A stretch of DNA of 64,000 nucleotides from Bacteroidota bacterium (GTDB lineage: Bacteria; Bacteroidota; Bacteroidia; B-17B0; Aurantibacillaceae). Below the pieces are notes generated by a model that made no database searches, was not told the origin of the DNA, and saw only the letters and a program-made list of their open reading frames with translations. This document shows, one piece after another, positions 17,909 to 22,923 of the stretch (position 1 is its first letter; each line of letters opens with the position of its first letter). Position numbers and translations under genes: made by a program. The stretch spans positions 1-64,000 of the forward strand of contig JACCXH010000067.1 of the NCBI GenBank assembly GCA_013697245.1, written 5' to 3'.

Positions 17909-20353
17909 ATGTTTAAAAAAATAGTTTCCTTCCTACTCTTTTTACTTGCACAAAATTTTACCGCCCAAACTATTAAAGGAAAAATAATTGATACCGATAA
18001 CAAACAGGCTATCCCTTTTGCTATTATTGCTTTAGAAGGTACCAACAAAGGAATCACCGCCGATCTTGATGGAAATTTCGAAATAAAAATCCCGGCAGGG
18101 GTTTTAAATATTGATGTACAAGTAATTGGGTACACAAAAAAAATAATCCCTGTTTTAGAGTTAAATGACACTAAAATTAATATTATAAAATTAATAGGTA
18201 ATTCTATTGAGTTGTTTGAAATTGTAGTAAGGCCAAAAGAAAATCCTGCCATTCCGATCATTAAAAATGTATTGAAAAACAAACCCATTTTTAATATAGA
18301 GAACCTGCCTTATTATTTTTGCTCAACCTACGCTAAAACTTATTTTACTTTAAGCGACAAAACAGGTGACGAGAATTTTTATAAAAAAGGTGACGCAAAA
18401 GATAGTCTTAGTAAATTTCTAGATAAGAGTTATTTATTTTTTATGGAATCGGTTACCGAAAAAAAATATAAATACAAAAATATCTCGCAGGAAAAAGTAA
18501 CTGCCTCAAGGGTTTCGGGTTTTAAAAGCTCGCCATTTGGTGCTTTCGCATCCCAATTACAATCTTTTACTTTTTATGCCGATAATATTGAATTATTAGA
18601 TCTGAAGTACGTGAACCCTTTAAGCAAAGGTACTTTTAAGCGTTATAATTTTGAAATTACTGATACCGTTTTAAATGATGCGGATACAACCATTATCATA
18701 AAATTTTATCCCAAAAAGAAAAGCAACTTTAAAGGCTTAAAAGGCTTATTATATATAAATAAGAATCAATATGCGCTGGCAAATGTTTTGGCCGAGCCGG
18801 CAGAAAAACCCAGCGATGGCAATGGCATTAAGATACAACAGTTGTATGAAAGAGTTGACTCTTCGCATTGGTTTCCGAAACAGGTAAATACCGAGATCTT
18901 TTTTTATGGTTTAACCGTAAACGGAAAAAAAGACGATGATAAAAAAGGGCAGGTTATAAAAGGCGTAAGCAGAATGTATATTAAAGATATAAAACTTGAT
19001 AGTGCAATAAAAATTAGGCACAAAAGCATTAGCGTTTATAATGAAGAAGGTTTTGATAAAAAAAACGAAGCTTATTGGAACTCTAAACGTATTGATACTT
19101 TATCTGAAAAAGAAATAACCACCTATCAGTTAATAGATAGTGTGGGCAGAGCAGCAGACCTTGATAAAAAATTCAAATGGTTTACTGCCTTAACAACCGG
19201 AAAATTTCAGATGGGTTATTTTAATATTGACCTTAAACACATTGTCCGCGCCAATGATTATGAAAATATACGTTTAGGTATTGGTATAAGTACAAGCAAT
19301 AAATTATCGCGCTGGTATAGTGTTGGCGGTTATGGCGGTTATGGTTTTAAAGATAAGGCTTTTAAATACGGCGGTTTTGCGCAAATAAATTTAAACTGGC
19401 GTCAATCTACTTTTCTTTTAGCAGAGGCTGCACATGAGGTTATGGAAAGTGCTGGCACCTCCTTTTTAAATGAATCGCAAAGCCTTATCAATACAGAAAA
19501 GATCCGTGACCTTTTAGTTAGCAGGATGGATATTGTAAATTTTGCTAAAGGAAGTTTCAATACCAACCTATTTAATTTTATCCGAATGTCGGCTTATTAT
19601 AAAGTAGAACAACGTCAATCGCCCTTTGGTTATGCCACAGCGCAAGATAATTTGTTGTTGAACGAAAAAAATAATTTTACCTTAAATGAAGCCGGCATAC
19701 AATTTAAGATCTACCCCAAAGAAAAATTTGCAGAGGGTATGGGACAATTAATTTCGCTTGGAAGTAAGTGGCCAAAATTTTCGATCAACCTGGTTAAAGG
19801 TTTAAATATTACAAGTCTTGGCTATAAAGGCGATTTTGATTATACAAAGCTAGATTTGAAGATTGACCACCAGGTGTATTTTAAAGTAAAAGGTTTTATT
19901 TCTTACCAGTTGCAAGCCGGTAAAGTATTTGGCAGTGTTCCTTATTCATTGCAATACAATAACAAAGGTTCGCGTATTGATAAATACTCTTTAAGCGCAG
20001 AAAAAACATTTGAGACCATGTATTTAAATGAATTTATAAGCACACAGTATGCTGCATTTTTCTTTGCCATTAATTCCGGTAAGATCGTAAAGCCCAATAA
20101 ATATTGTAATCCTGAATTAGAGTTGATTCACAATTACGGAATTGGAACTTTAGATAACCGTCAAAATTTAACGAATATTGAATTAAATGATATTAGTAAA
20201 GGCTTTACCGAAACAGGTTTGAGGATAAAAAACATCTATAAGTCTAAGTTTAGCTCTTTTGGCGCGGGTGTTTATTACCGTTATGGAAATTACGCTTACG
20301 AAAACAAGAACAACAATATCGTTTACAAATTGGTTTTGGGCGTTTCGTTCTAG
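17909..20353 (+). CDS. DUF5686 outer-membrane protein with carboxypeptidase-regulatory-like domain
   Basis: An 814-residue envelope protein. It has a signal peptide (cleavage after TAQ, about residue 20), an N-terminal CarboxypepD_reg-like beta-sandwich (residues about 21-105: IKGKIIDTDNKQAIPFAIIAL ... GNFEIKI), and then the DUF5686 region, which ends in an outer-membrane beta-barrel with a final phenylalanine (LVLGVSF). The family is widespread in Bacteroidota but functionally undefined. The stop codon overlaps that of the converging TPR gene. It follows tsaB by one base. Confidence 0.9.
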   Translation: MFKKIVSFLLFLLAQNFTAQTIKGKIIDTDNKQAIPFAIIALEGTNKGITADLDGNFEIKIPAGVLNIDVQVIGYTKKIIPVLELNDTKINIIKLIGNSIELFEIVVRPKENPAIPIIKNVLKNKPIFNIENLPYYFCSTYAKTYFTLSDKTGDENFYKKGDAKDSLSKFLDKSYLFFMESVTEKKYKYKNISQEKVTASRVSGFKSSPFGAFASQLQSFTFYADNIELLDLKYVNPLSKGTFKRYNFEITDTVLNDADTTIIIKFYPKKKSNFKGLKGLLYINKNQYALANVLAEPAEKPSDGNGIKIQQLYERVDSSHWFPKQVNTEIFFYGLTVNGKKDDDKKGQVIKGVSRMYIKDIKLDSAIKIRHKSISVYNEEGFDKKNEAYWNSKRIDTLSEKEITTYQLIDSVGRAADLDKKFKWFTALTTGKFQMGYFNIDLKHIVRANDYENIRLGIGISTSNKLSRWYSVGGYGGYGFKDKAFKYGGFAQINLNWRQSTFLLAEAAHEVMESAGTSFLNESQSLINTEKIRDLLVSRMDIVNFAKGSFNTNLFNFIRMSAYYKVEQRQSPFGYATAQDNLLLNEKNNFTLNEAGIQFKIYPKEKFAEGMGQLISLGSKWPKFSINLVKGLNITSLGYKGDFDYTKLDLKIDHQVYFKVKGFISYQLQAGKVFGSVPYSLQYNNKGSRIDKYSLSAEKTFETMYLNEFISTQYAAFFFAINSGKIVKPNKYCNPELELIHNYGIGTLDNRQNLTNIELNDISKGFTETGLRIKNIYKSKFSSFGAGVYYRYGNYAYENKNNNIVYKLVLGVSF

Positions 20354-21357
20354 TTCTTTAAATATTTTTTTGCCTTTTCTGAATAAAATTCGCCTTCATC
20401 GGCAATAACTTTAAATTTTGAAATGGCAGTTTCCTTGTCACCACTCTCATACAAAGCCATGGCATTATAATACATGGCTTCCTGTAAAAATGTATTATTT
20501 ACGCTTTCAATGCACTTGTCAAAAAACTCAATTGCCTTTGCGTAATTTTTTTTGTAATAATAACACATACCTGAATAAAAATTACAATTTATATCTTCAT
20601 CATTGTAAGCTGCAATGTTCTTTAAGGCATAGACACACTGATCATAATATCCTTTTTTAAATAACAATAAAGCGCCCGAAAATTCTTCATGCAAATAATA
20701 ATCTGCGCTTTGTTTAAGGCTATTTGTATTTTTATTCAAATCATCTTTATTTGCAAATGAAACCGGAAGTGCACCATTAGCCGGAAGTTTCACATATTGG
20801 TTCTTTTTAAAATATAAAGTAGTGTAATTGGTCACTTTCAGATCATGAATATAAACAACAGGTGCATTTGAAATATATTTGAGCTTAGATTCATTCATTT
20901 TATCATCCAAGATTGACTCCACATTAATCGGTTTGGCTGGGATCATAGAAACGCTATCGATTATACTGTTATAGGCGATGCTTGCGGTATCCAAACTATT
21001 TTTTATGGCCGCACGTGGATTAACAAAATTTTCTTTAAAGACCTTAACTGTGTCTAACAAAATAGCTGTTTCACTAATTGGTTTTTTTACGGGCATTGTA
21101 TCATTTAAGATCTTATTTGGCGCATTTGACGAATAAATAACCGGTTTATTGGCCACCATAAAAAATAACGACACTCCAATAAACACGCCAATAATTAAAC
21201 TTATGAATCCAAAATAAAGACCGTTGTTATAAGAGAACACACGTTTCTTTATTTTACTATCCAGGTCCTTCAGATCGAGATCAGAAATAGATATCTTCTC
21301 AAAGCCAAGCTGGGCAAGATAATCAAGATCGTCTGTATTACTTTTATTAACCTGCAT
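20350..21357 (-). CDS. Membrane-anchored TPR protein paired with a sigma factor
   Basis: About 335 residues from the ATG at 21357, which overlaps the sigma-factor stop by 11 bases; the longer frame from 21384 would place nine lysine-rich residues inside the upstream gene. The N-terminal 50 residues are soluble and presumably cytoplasmic, one membrane helix follows (GLYFGFISLIIGVFIGVSLFFM by shape, near residues 55-75), then a periplasmic linker and C-terminal TPR-like repeats (NFYSGMCYYYKKNYAKAIEFFDK, YYNAMALYESGDKETAISKF). This topology and the coupling suggest an anti-sigma-like regulator, but no canonical zinc or FecR motif is present, so that role is inference. Confidence 0.78.
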   Translation of the reverse strand: MQVNKSNTDDLDYLAQLGFEKISISDLDLKDLDSKIKKRVFSYNNGLYFGFISLIIGVFIGVSLFFMVANKPVIYSSNAPNKILNDTMPVKKPISETAILLDTVKVFKENFVNPRAAIKNSLDTASIAYNSIIDSVSMIPAKPINVESILDDKMNESKLKYISNAPVVYIHDLKVTNYTTLYFKKNQYVKLPANGALPVSFANKDDLNKNTNSLKQSADYYLHEEFSGALLLFKKGYYDQCVYALKNIAAYNDEDINCNFYSGMCYYYKKNYAKAIEFFDKCIESVNNTFLQEAMYYNAMALYESGDKETAISKFKVIADEGEFYSEKAKKYLKN

Positions 21358-21943
21358 TTTTTTTGTTTTTAATTTTATTTTCAATTAATAACTTCAAATT
21401 CCGTTTCCCGTTCTGTATAAAACTTTTTACTTCATTCAAAGAAAAACTAGTCTTATCACAAATTTGTTGATAGCTCTGTGCTTTTAAATAGAAAAGATCA
21501 ACACAAACTCTTTGATTTTCTTTTAACTCAATTAAACTTGCCTGCATGTGGTCAAGCATCACTTCATCACTTATACCTAAAATTCTTTCTTCTTCTTCAA
21601 AGCTTGTTTCATTTACCTCGAAGTCAAGATAGCTTTCGGGCAAACGGTATTTGTTTTTATTTTTTCGGATCTCGCTAATGCAATAATTCCTTACCACAAA
21701 ACTTAGCCATCCTTTAAAATTCTTTACTTCGGTCTTTTTTAATTCGGTAATTAACTTCTCGAAGATTTGCATCACCGCATCTTTTGCAATATCCTTATCC
21801 CTGAAATAGAATAAACACACACCAAAAACGGTTTTTACGTGTTTTTCGAAAAGTAATCCCACAAGTTCCTTATCGCCTGTATTAAAATAATTCAGGGCAA
21901 GTTCCTCATCCGTGGCAAAGTCTCTTTTCTTAAATAACCACAT
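21347..21943 (-). CDS. ECF-type sigma-70 family RNA polymerase sigma factor
   Basis: A 198-residue alternative sigma factor. Region 2 is seen at residues about 20-95 (LLFEKHVKTVFGVCLFYFRDKDIAKDAVMQIF, then WLSFVVRNYCISEIRK), and region 4 helix-turn-helix at about 130-185 (LKENQRVCVDLFYLKAQSYQQICDKTSFSLNEVKSFIQ by pattern). Length and order are those of small ECF factors of Bacteroidota. The linker between regions 2 and 4 is long and acidic (DFEVNETSFEEEERI). It overlaps the following membrane TPR gene and is divergent from a TonB-plug gene across a 134-base gap with a strong palindrome. Confidence 0.92.
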   Translation of the reverse strand: MWLFKKRDFATDEELALNYFNTGDKELVGLLFEKHVKTVFGVCLFYFRDKDIAKDAVMQIFEKLITELKKTEVKNFKGWLSFVVRNYCISEIRKNKNKYRLPESYLDFEVNETSFEEEERILGISDEVMLDHMQASLIELKENQRVCVDLFYLKAQSYQQICDKTSFSLNEVKSFIQNGKRNLKLLIENKIKNKKNAG

Positions 21944-21979
21944 AAATCCTTTTCTCTTTATTAAGACGCTTTTAGTTTA

Positions 21980-22012
21980 ATATTCCATAAAAATAATTTA
22001 TTTATGGAATAT
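21980..22012. promoter_or_regulatory. 12-bp-arm palindrome between sigma factor and TonB-plug gene
   Basis: Perfect inverted repeat: ATATTCCATAAA at 21980-21991 and its reverse complement at 22001-22012, with a nine-base AT spacer. It sits 37 bases upstream of the sigma-factor ATG and 65 bases upstream of the plug-protein ATG, in the divergent gap, so it is placed as an operator rather than a terminator; there is no T-run following it in either direction. The binding factor is unknown. Confidence 0.6.
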
Positions 22013-22077
22013 ATACTCATTTCCGTCTTATTATCAGAAACCGGTTCAGATCTTATAAACTTTTAAAACTAGAAATT

Positions 22078-22923
22078 ATGAAAACTTTAACATTAAAAAC
22101 AGCAGCAATAACCTTACTATCACTAGTATTTGGCCTAAATATAAACGCTCAGGGTTATGGCGAAATAAGAGGAATTATTAAAGATACCACGCTGGAGCCA
22201 ATAGCTTTTGCAACGGTAAAAATTTTGCAGGGCACTACCTTAATTGGCGGAACACAAACCGATGCAAACGGAAGATATAAATACAAACCATTAAATCCGG
22301 GCACTTACGATATGGTTGTACTGGAACCAGAGCATATAACACAGCCGGTACATAAAATAAAAGTGACCCCAAACGAAGCCACATACGTAGATGTAAAAAT
22401 GAGTAGTAATATGTTAGGTACAGTAACGGTAACTGCTAAACCTTACGATTACACACATGCAGGTTCGGATAATAATGTTTATACGATAAAAAGTTTAGAT
22501 GCTACCGAATTATTACAATTAGCCGGCAGTTCGAGAGGAGATATAAAAGGAGTTTTAACCAGCATTACTTCTGACGTGATAGAGACAAATGGAGAGATAC
22601 ATTTTAGGGGTACCAGGGGCGATGCCACCGCTTATTATATTGATGGTGTAAAAACAATAGGTGGTACAGAGGTGCCGGGCCTGAGTATTGAGAACCTAAC
22701 AGTATATAGTGGTGGCGTGCCAGCCATGTATGGCGATGTAATGGGCGGTGTTGTGATTATTACCACTAAAAGTTACTTTAGCGGCATTCGCGAAAAAAAT
22801 ATGAGAGTAAATGCCTACCAAGAAAAAGTAGCTGAAAAAAAACGCCTTGAAAAAGCAAGGTTGGATGAAGAAAAAAGGAAAATAGAAATTGAAGAAGAAA
22901 AGAAAAATGGGATAAGCGAATAA
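22078..22923 (+). CDS. TonB-plug protein lacking a beta-barrel
   Basis: A 281-residue exported protein. After a signal peptide (cleavage near INAQ, residue 24) comes a carboxypeptidase-regulatory-like beta-sandwich (about 28-110: IRGIIKDTTLEPIAFATVKI), then a TonB-receptor plug domain (about 125-225: VLTSITSDVIETNGEIHFRGTRGD by pattern, YYIDGVKTIGG, VYSGGVPAMYGDVMGGVV). It then stops after a short highly charged helix (KVAEKKRLEKARLDEEKRK). TonB-dependent receptors continue for 500 or more residues as a barrel, which is absent here, and the following sequence contains no barrel remnant. It may therefore act as a free-standing plug or signalling module. It is divergent from a sigma-factor operon. 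Confidence 0.85.
   Translation: MKTLTLKTAAITLLSLVFGLNINAQGYGEIRGIIKDTTLEPIAFATVKILQGTTLIGGTQTDANGRYKYKPLNPGTYDMVVLEPEHITQPVHKIKVTPNEATYVDVKMSSNMLGTVTVTAKPYDYTHAGSDNNVYTIKSLDATELLQLAGSSRGDIKGVLTSITSDVIETNGEIHFRGTRGDATAYYIDGVKTIGGTEVPGLSIENLTVYSGGVPAMYGDVMGGVVIITTKSYFSGIREKNMRVNAYQEKVAEKKRLEKARLDEEKRKIEIEEEKKNGISE

Follow-up and report, generated by a model that had tools for sequence, protein, structure and literature searches.

The window, a stretch of 64,000 nucleotides (nt) from a Bacteroidota bacterium of the Aurantibacillaceae (assembly GCA_013697245.1, contig JACCXH010000067.1, positions 1 to 64,000), contains a trio of genes for an extracytoplasmic function (ECF) sigma factor, a membrane protein with tetratricopeptide repeats (TPRs) and a divergently encoded, exported protein with a TonB plug domain (Table 1). 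An initial annotation, made from the letters of the DNA alone, had described the sigma gene as overlapping the gene of a single-helix membrane protein with periplasmic TPRs, which is borne out by Pfam matches, by the overlap of the frames and by hydropathy; most of the TPR gene lies beyond the coordinates given at the time (21347-22923). The sigma factor matches Sigma70_r2 (E 3.5e-9) and r4_2 (E 2.3e-6), and regions 2 and 4 are present in all 20 aligned orthologues, with no region 1 or 3 family listed among the Pfam matches. The TPR protein matches TPR_2 at residues 260-284 (E 4.8e-8). The divergent product had been described as combining regulatory-like and TonB-plug domains without a barrel, in agreement with its Pfam matches to CarboxypepD_reg and Plug. 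No 22-strand receptor barrel was found in this protein or in its aligned orthologues, and the 11 families matched by 20 plug orthologues (E up to 0.01) include neither a receptor-barrel nor an STN family.

Table 1. Features of the sigma-TPR-plug locus, in window coordinates (aa, amino acids; TM, transmembrane).
Feature	Position	Strand	Remarks
ECF sigma gene	21347-21943	-	198 aa; 11-nt overlap with TPR gene
TPR gene	20350-21357	-	335 aa; ATG at 21357; predicted anti-sigma factor, single-pass membrane protein
TPR protein, cytoplasmic anti-sigma-like N-terminus	about 21223-21357	-	
TPR protein, TM helix	about 21148-21213	-	top hydrophobic segment, residues about 51-69, by hydropathy only
TPR protein, conserved periplasmic segment with YIHDLKVTNY	about 20803-20880	-	
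TPR protein, C-terminal TPRs	about 20353-20685	-	
Plug gene	22078-22923	+	281 aa; exported, barrel-less; divergent from sigma gene
Plug protein, signal peptide	about 22078-22152	+	judged by eye
Plug protein, CarboxypepD/transthyretin-like domain	about 22165-22431	+	CarboxypepD_reg E 7.2e-14, residues 30-108
Plug protein, TonB plug domain	about 22477-22752	+	Plug E 2e-5, residues 134-225
Plug protein, charged helical tail	about 22780-22920	+	
Perfect 12-bp inverted repeat	21980-22012		arms 21980-21991 and 22001-22012; 9 nt between arms
Predicted ECF promoter, sigma-ward	21962-21991	-	TTTATGGAAT-N13-CGTCTTA; 18 nt upstream of sigma ATG
Predicted ECF promoter, plug-ward	22001-22030	+	TTTATGGAAT-N13-CGTCTTA; 47 nt upstream of plug ATG

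The window's own genome has 27 plug matches, and the one at this locus lies in the shortest open frame (308 aa); 25 of the other 26 frames measure 676-1241 aa and one 518 aa. The Pfam family Plug is matched in 20/20 aligned orthologues (the alignment excludes L054, which lies at a contig end, and L060, for which the start was not found), and the orthologous frames stop soon after the plug domain, at 250-286 aa. Residues 130-231 of the plug model superimpose on the plug of FyuA (Z 10.6, 97 residues, root-mean-square deviation (rmsd) 3.1). The plug half of the model is weak (mean predicted local distance difference test score, pLDDT, 69.5), as is the helical insertion in the model of the propeller protein described below, and fold matches in these parts are therefore soft.

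A plug domain without a barrel could be what is left of a decayed TonB receptor, and the same genomes contain frames of ~1240 aa that share 28-33% identity with the plug protein over the corresponding part. Against such decay, short open frames with 49-80% identity are found in 20 of 36 same-genus genomes, and core and promoter are conserved. Including G054 and G056 of other families, the short orthologous frames span 224-319 aa, the shortest being at a contig edge. We reject a decayed or truncated receptor on the grounds of these conserved short orthologues, and consider it barely conceivable. Nor is the plug gene a truncated fragment confined to this strain, a possibility that the initial annotation had raised.

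The three genes stay together. TPR and sigma orthologues adjoin the short plug orthologues, and the full trio is present in 21/21 relatives fetched with enough flanking sequence (L046-L052 and L054-L067; L053, from G026, ends at a contig edge). The flanking genes vary among the relatives (for example L051, L058-L060 and L063-L067) while the trio persists. Outside the genus, plug, sigma and TPR genes occur together in 14 of 21 loci (5 divergent, 9 collinear) from 11 families, a share that is not an unbiased rate, as the loci were hand-picked around TPR homologues to spread over families. In three of the 14 (G172, G359 and G271) the genes follow one another on one strand in the order plug-sigma-TPR-propeller, and in L252 a second plug-containing gene is inserted within the trio. 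The other seven loci comprise four with sigma and TPR genes and no plug, one with sigma, TPR and a weak plug match, one with plug and TPR and no called sigma gene, and one with none of them. The neighbourhood that the initial annotation had put forward as a signalling module is thus conserved.

Longer plug-containing proteins adjoin the module in G257, G347 and G106 (L252, 641 aa; L257, 666 aa; L263, 812 aa) and may be intermediate or partner proteins. L070 (G048:C1) has several neighbours in common with L066 and a plug homologue match that crosses a TAG; no sigma or TPR match was found there, and a partial loss of the module is possible.

The perfect inverted repeat reported in the gap between the sigma and plug genes is present, and its arms and two outer elements that had gone unreported recur in relatives beyond chance. 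In the sigma-plug gaps of 22 loci (20 of the genus together with L066 and L067), CGTCTTA or a near form lies outward of each arm at a distance of 13 or 14 nt. We took the best-scoring site in each direction (44 sites, maximum score 17) and used 440 shuffled gaps as a control. Scores of 15-17, exceeding all shuffles (mean 10.9, maximum 14), were obtained for 36 sites; the remaining eight score 12-14, a range that shuffles sometimes attain. The sigma-ward best site scores 13-17 across the 22 loci, exceeding every shuffle in 18. GGAA and the G of CGTC are invariant in 44/44 sites, a count that the selection of best sites biases towards the consensus used. The inner spacer is 13 nt in 40 sites and 14 nt in four. 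From one half-site to the other, the distance varies between 7 and 451 nt.

The variable gap between the arms, combined with the fixed inner spacer, fits two independent divergent promoters and not a dimer operator or hairpin. The repeat arms are the -35 elements of two back-to-back predicted promoters; ECF-type promoters with a CGT -10 box have been described in Flavobacterium psychrophilum (PMC9723704). The arms are perfect over 12 bp and 9 nt apart in the window, as would be expected if a separate dimeric regulator bound them or if they formed a terminator hairpin, with an incidental linkage to the trio. Yet each arm keeps its distance to the outer CGTCTTA-like element at arm gaps of 7-451 nt, single, directional copies precede the propeller genes, and the strict site is found in 0/16 same-genus genomes that lack the trio. 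We consider an operator or terminator very improbable and reject it on the contrast between variable arm gap and constant inner spacer. The earlier suggestion of a palindrome upstream of both genes therefore holds as far as the recurrence of the arms is concerned, and fails as a shared operator.

In the window's genome, the strict motif ATGGAAN{12,15}CGTCTTA occurs only at the two sites in the trio gap (reversed control, 0). Among 41 genomes, TATGGAAN{13,15}CGTCTTA is found in 14 of the 15 that carry the trio, complete or in part, and in none of the 26 others; the reversed pattern gives 11 matches in 9 genomes. The pattern TTATGGAAN{13,15}CGTCTNA has 47 sites in 22 of 40 same-genus genomes (reversed control, 8 matches). 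All 22 belong to the 24 genomes that bear the trio at least in part, and none of the other 16 genomes has a site (Fisher p 2.4e-9, uncorrected for kinship). Three of the 24 are cut by contig ends (G026, G010 and G062), the 16 include incomplete assemblies (down to 60%), and in G060 the check covered the TPR gene alone. The two trio-bearing genomes (whole or part) without a strict site are G018 and G062.

The 47 strict sites are concentrated at few genes: 29 lie in the trio gap, 12 precede the gene of a propeller protein, one precedes a 187-aa gene adjoining it (G014), and five lie elsewhere (G031:C1:802654, G010:C53, G011:C144, G022:C55 and G008:C71). The sites G031:C1:802654 and G010:C53 precede homologous Cys-rich proteins, and a homologous protein with a Cys-rich N-terminus in the window's own genome (G000:C21:135038) has a site with CATC in place of CGTC (loci L129, L141 and L135). 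This family is a possible further member of the regulon. A separate site, TTTATGGAA-N14-CATCTCA, is near-identical in four genomes (G000:C33:24922, G019, G026 and G006), and in the window's genome it lies 7 nt upstream of a frame of ~1014 aa; it is perhaps the promoter of a paralogous sigma factor.

The propeller gene is a fourth member of the system, which the initial annotation had missed. It encodes an exported protein of ~440 aa, composed of a transthyretin-like domain resembling the N-terminal extension of SusC and a propeller with a low-confidence helical insertion. In the window's genome it is located at G000:C1:33548-34870, unlinked to the trio, and its site (G000:C1:34880) ends in CGTCTGA. 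Orthologues are found in all searched trio-bearing genomes except G018; G055 has a 30% homologue. The relaxed motif lies upstream of 18 of 22 orthologues (counted without L167, which has no upstream sequence, and the distant L169, L170 and L171, which lack the motif), three more show similar sequences on visual inspection, and the remaining orthologue is that of G014, where the site precedes the adjoining 187-aa gene. Among the 18 motif-bearing upstream regions (within L146-L168), the ATG follows CGTCT by 8-11 nt in 14 and by 20-25 nt in four. At the shorter distance the propeller mRNA would probably be almost leaderless. A gene of ~355 aa near the propeller gene in most of 12 regions printed, presumably a branched-chain aminotransferase, is read as housekeeping synteny; the 355-aa product in L270 is a different protein.

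Propeller and TPR genes also co-occur more widely. Across 395 genomes of the class, 59 have both, 8 the propeller only, 19 the TPR gene only and 309 neither, with 4 or 5 candidates scored per genome and with thresholds (E 1e-45 for the propeller, about 1e-17 for the TPR protein) that were set after inspecting the lists. In several distant families the -10 element reads CATC. With C[AG]TC allowed, the motif heads 24 of 45 operon-head genes at distant loci (sigma 7/10, plug 10/15, propeller 7/20), compared with 0/30 internal family genes and 2/315 other genes; two control patterns gave no family gene and one each of the 315 others. These totals omit one TPR head gene (0/1) and 22 genes directly behind family genes (0/22). 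The relaxation was picked after viewing the same loci, and the contrast between head, internal and other genes is still large. Mirror-tree correlations among the four proteins in 17 genomes all lie at 0.87-0.94 and are indistinguishable from shared phylogeny.

The remaining component to be placed is the TPR protein. Its gene is adjacent to the sigma gene, and hydropathy suggests a small N-terminal cytoplasmic domain followed by a TM helix. The motif Hx3Cx2C occurs in 12 of 42 TPR family members, all from other taxonomic families, and its presence in these homologues argues that the TPR protein is very probably an anti-sigma factor. None of the 20 members in the genus, the window included, has the motif; they keep the segment that follows it, without the zinc ligands. 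The TPR protein of L067 matches zf-HC2 with E 0.0028, below the cut-off. Zinc and non-zinc class I anti-sigma factors (ASDIs) are reported to be mixed within groups, with Hx3Cx2C in about 56% of ASDIs (PMC7406223). From these homologies, we probably have in the TPR protein an anti-sigma factor of class I that lacks its zinc motif in this genus. The initial annotation had cast it as a novel substitute for FecR; it indeed lacks a FecR domain, and it is less exotic than that proposal implied.

Paralogous sigma loci have a comparable layout, which also speaks for an anti-sigma factor. In 20/20 of them (L074-L093, including G000:C21:85882, picked from the better sigma matches), a gene for a protein with a single TM helix, judged by hydropathy, lies directly downstream. 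Six of these proteins were scanned: two end in TonB_C, three in TPRs and one has no match. The product of L087:6863-8251, encoded behind a sigma gene, combines a TM helix, CarboxypepD and TonB_C in one chain. Proteins that end in a TonB domain may represent an additional kind of anti-sigma factor.

We propose that the locus encodes a dedicated, autoregulated ECF sigma/anti-sigma module of the cell envelope. The N-terminus of the TPR protein would tether the sigma factor at the membrane, with the TPR domain located in the periplasm. The freed sigma factor would recognise TTTATGGAAT-N13/14-CGTCTTA, or its CATC form in the distant families, and direct transcription of a very small set of units, comprising the sigma operon itself, the plug gene and the CarboxypepD-propeller gene. 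For these two steps, both of which have strong support from sequence comparison, we estimate a probability of roughly 0.85 that the TPR protein is the cognate anti-sigma factor and that the sigma factor drives these three units via the shared promoter. Release of the sigma factor would follow from a periplasmic or outer-membrane event acting via the TPR domain, by conformational change or regulated proteolysis.

Several observations weigh against the proposed module. In the window, the N-terminus of the TPR protein matches no Pfam family, anti-sigma families included, and lacks zinc ligands. The spacer of 13-14 nt between the -35 and -10 elements is shorter than in textbook ECF promoters and in those of other groups. 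Same-genus genomes share their history and are not independent, and a genome-wide scan allowing two mismatches shows no excess over the reversed control, so only the strict motif is informative. At the distant loci, a narrower CGTC motif, which was tried first, was found at 11 of 76 family genes versus 1 of 337 others, and even the relaxed motif is not seen at 13/20 propeller, 5/15 plug and 3/10 sigma heads. In eight genomes, seven of them from family f3, the propeller is present and no TPR match passes the threshold applied. Finally, G018 has kept the trio with imperfect promoters and has no propeller orthologue, which implies that the propeller is dispensable there.

We further hypothesize that plug and propeller act as dedicated partners in the periplasm and that their production completes a feedback circuit: they could bind the TPR domain and so shield the anti-sigma factor, or they could remove the outer-membrane disturbance. 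This last step is put forward tentatively, at somewhat less than even odds. The Fox system of P. aeruginosa makes a feedback role plausible: there, the signalling domain of the receptor works from the periplasmic side on the anti-sigma factor and shields it from proteolysis (PMC11637429). Sealing is likewise plausible, given that in the type 9 system the barrel of the quiescent SprA translocon is sealed by Plug, a separate protein (PMC10994853).

Other roles for the plug protein have to be weighed against this feedback. The layout of ECF sigma factor, single-pass anti-sigma factor and adjacent plug-domain gene is shared with FecI/FecR/FecA surface signalling, and the free plug might replace the TonB receptor and signal to the TPR anti-sigma factor, for which the periplasmic action of the Fox receptor is again a precedent (PMC11637429). 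Neither FecR nor STN is matched by the window proteins at E up to 1, the aligned plug orthologues contain no barrel or STN family, and the sigma factor scores 65.7 against TIGR02985, below the cut-off of 126.4; on these grounds we reject membership in the FecR systems. As a predicted product of the regulon, the plug also fits feedback as well as it fits input, and we regard a FecA-like input role as unlikely. Alternatively, plug and propeller may be pure effectors that repair the envelope or seal a resident outer-membrane barrel, and take no direct part in signalling. They are the sole recurrent targets of the strict site besides the sigma operon, apart from the one Cys-rich family (two sites), and the SprA Plug is a precedent for the sealing of a barrel by a separate protein (PMC10994853). 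No barrel partner came to light, and the 16 PDB matches of the plug profile (E up to 1) include no chain of the SprA complex, although a fold match may still exist; a purely effector role is doubtful on balance, if a serious contender. A further reading is a receptor-free switch: the soluble plug and the propeller, both produced under sigma control, would associate with one another or with a resident barrel and report on or seal the outer membrane, and the TPR domain would read their free pool. This is a speculative and rather unlikely arrangement.

Judged by the features tested, the module is of the ECF sigma/anti-sigma kind and stands outside the FecR/FecA and Dma families. It resembles the class I ASDI pairs RsiW/SigW, ChrR/SigE and RseA/RpoE in having a small N-terminal domain (with Hx3Cx2C in part of the family), one TM helix, an extracytoplasmic domain, an anti-sigma gene directly behind the sigma gene and a sigma-type promoter at the head of its own operon. 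In contrast to these pairs, the periplasmic domain consists of TPRs, the predicted regulon contains plug and propeller, and the genus lacks the zinc motif. In E. coli, the rpoE-rseA-rseB unit joins sigma factor, anti-sigma factor and periplasmic modulator; the sigma-TPR-propeller order of G172, G359 and G271 resembles it in layout only. FecI/FecR/FecA shares the ECF sigma factor, the single-pass anti-sigma factor and a plug domain at the locus; unlike in that system, no FecR domain, STN domain or receptor barrel was found here.

The Dma/Das systems (ECF21) of Bacteroides thetaiotaomicron likewise consist of an ECF sigma factor and an adjacent anti-sigma factor with N-terminal domain and TM helix (PMC13088901). 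The C-terminus of Dma is described as an outer-membrane beta-barrel, whereas TPRs take its place here and the plug protein is barrel-less. Dma2 mainly affects its own operon, its neighbours and polysaccharide utilisation loci (PMC13088901); polysaccharide utilisation genes were not seen among the targets here. With the Plug of the SprA translocon, the plug protein has in common that the plug is a separate protein. The SprA Plug gave no sequence match in the PDB searches, so that identity with it has no sequence support; it is not among the 50 fold rows listed, and a relation in fold is possible. YncE and YncD of E. coli form another pairing. YncE can be superimposed on the propeller half of the 440-aa protein with Z 11.0 (246 residues, rmsd 5.8), with unrelated propellers scoring similarly, and the plug profile matches YncD with E 0.06; the likeness to YncE/YncD is one of folds only. 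We found no description of the module in the open-licence PMC literature searched, which does not prove its absence from print.

In Bacteroidetes, a mere 6% of ECFs are reported to be associated with class I anti-sigma factors (PMC7406223). For the group of ECF sigma factors described here, sequence comparison across twelve or more families of the class points to a probable anti-sigma factor, to a sharply defined promoter motif and to a regulon made up of essentially three units. A TonB plug has also been kept as a stand-alone protein in several families, which raises the question of what role a plug plays without a barrel. If the receptor-free switch were to prove true, it would represent a class of ECF signalling, widespread in Bacteroidia, in which the plug works without a barrel.

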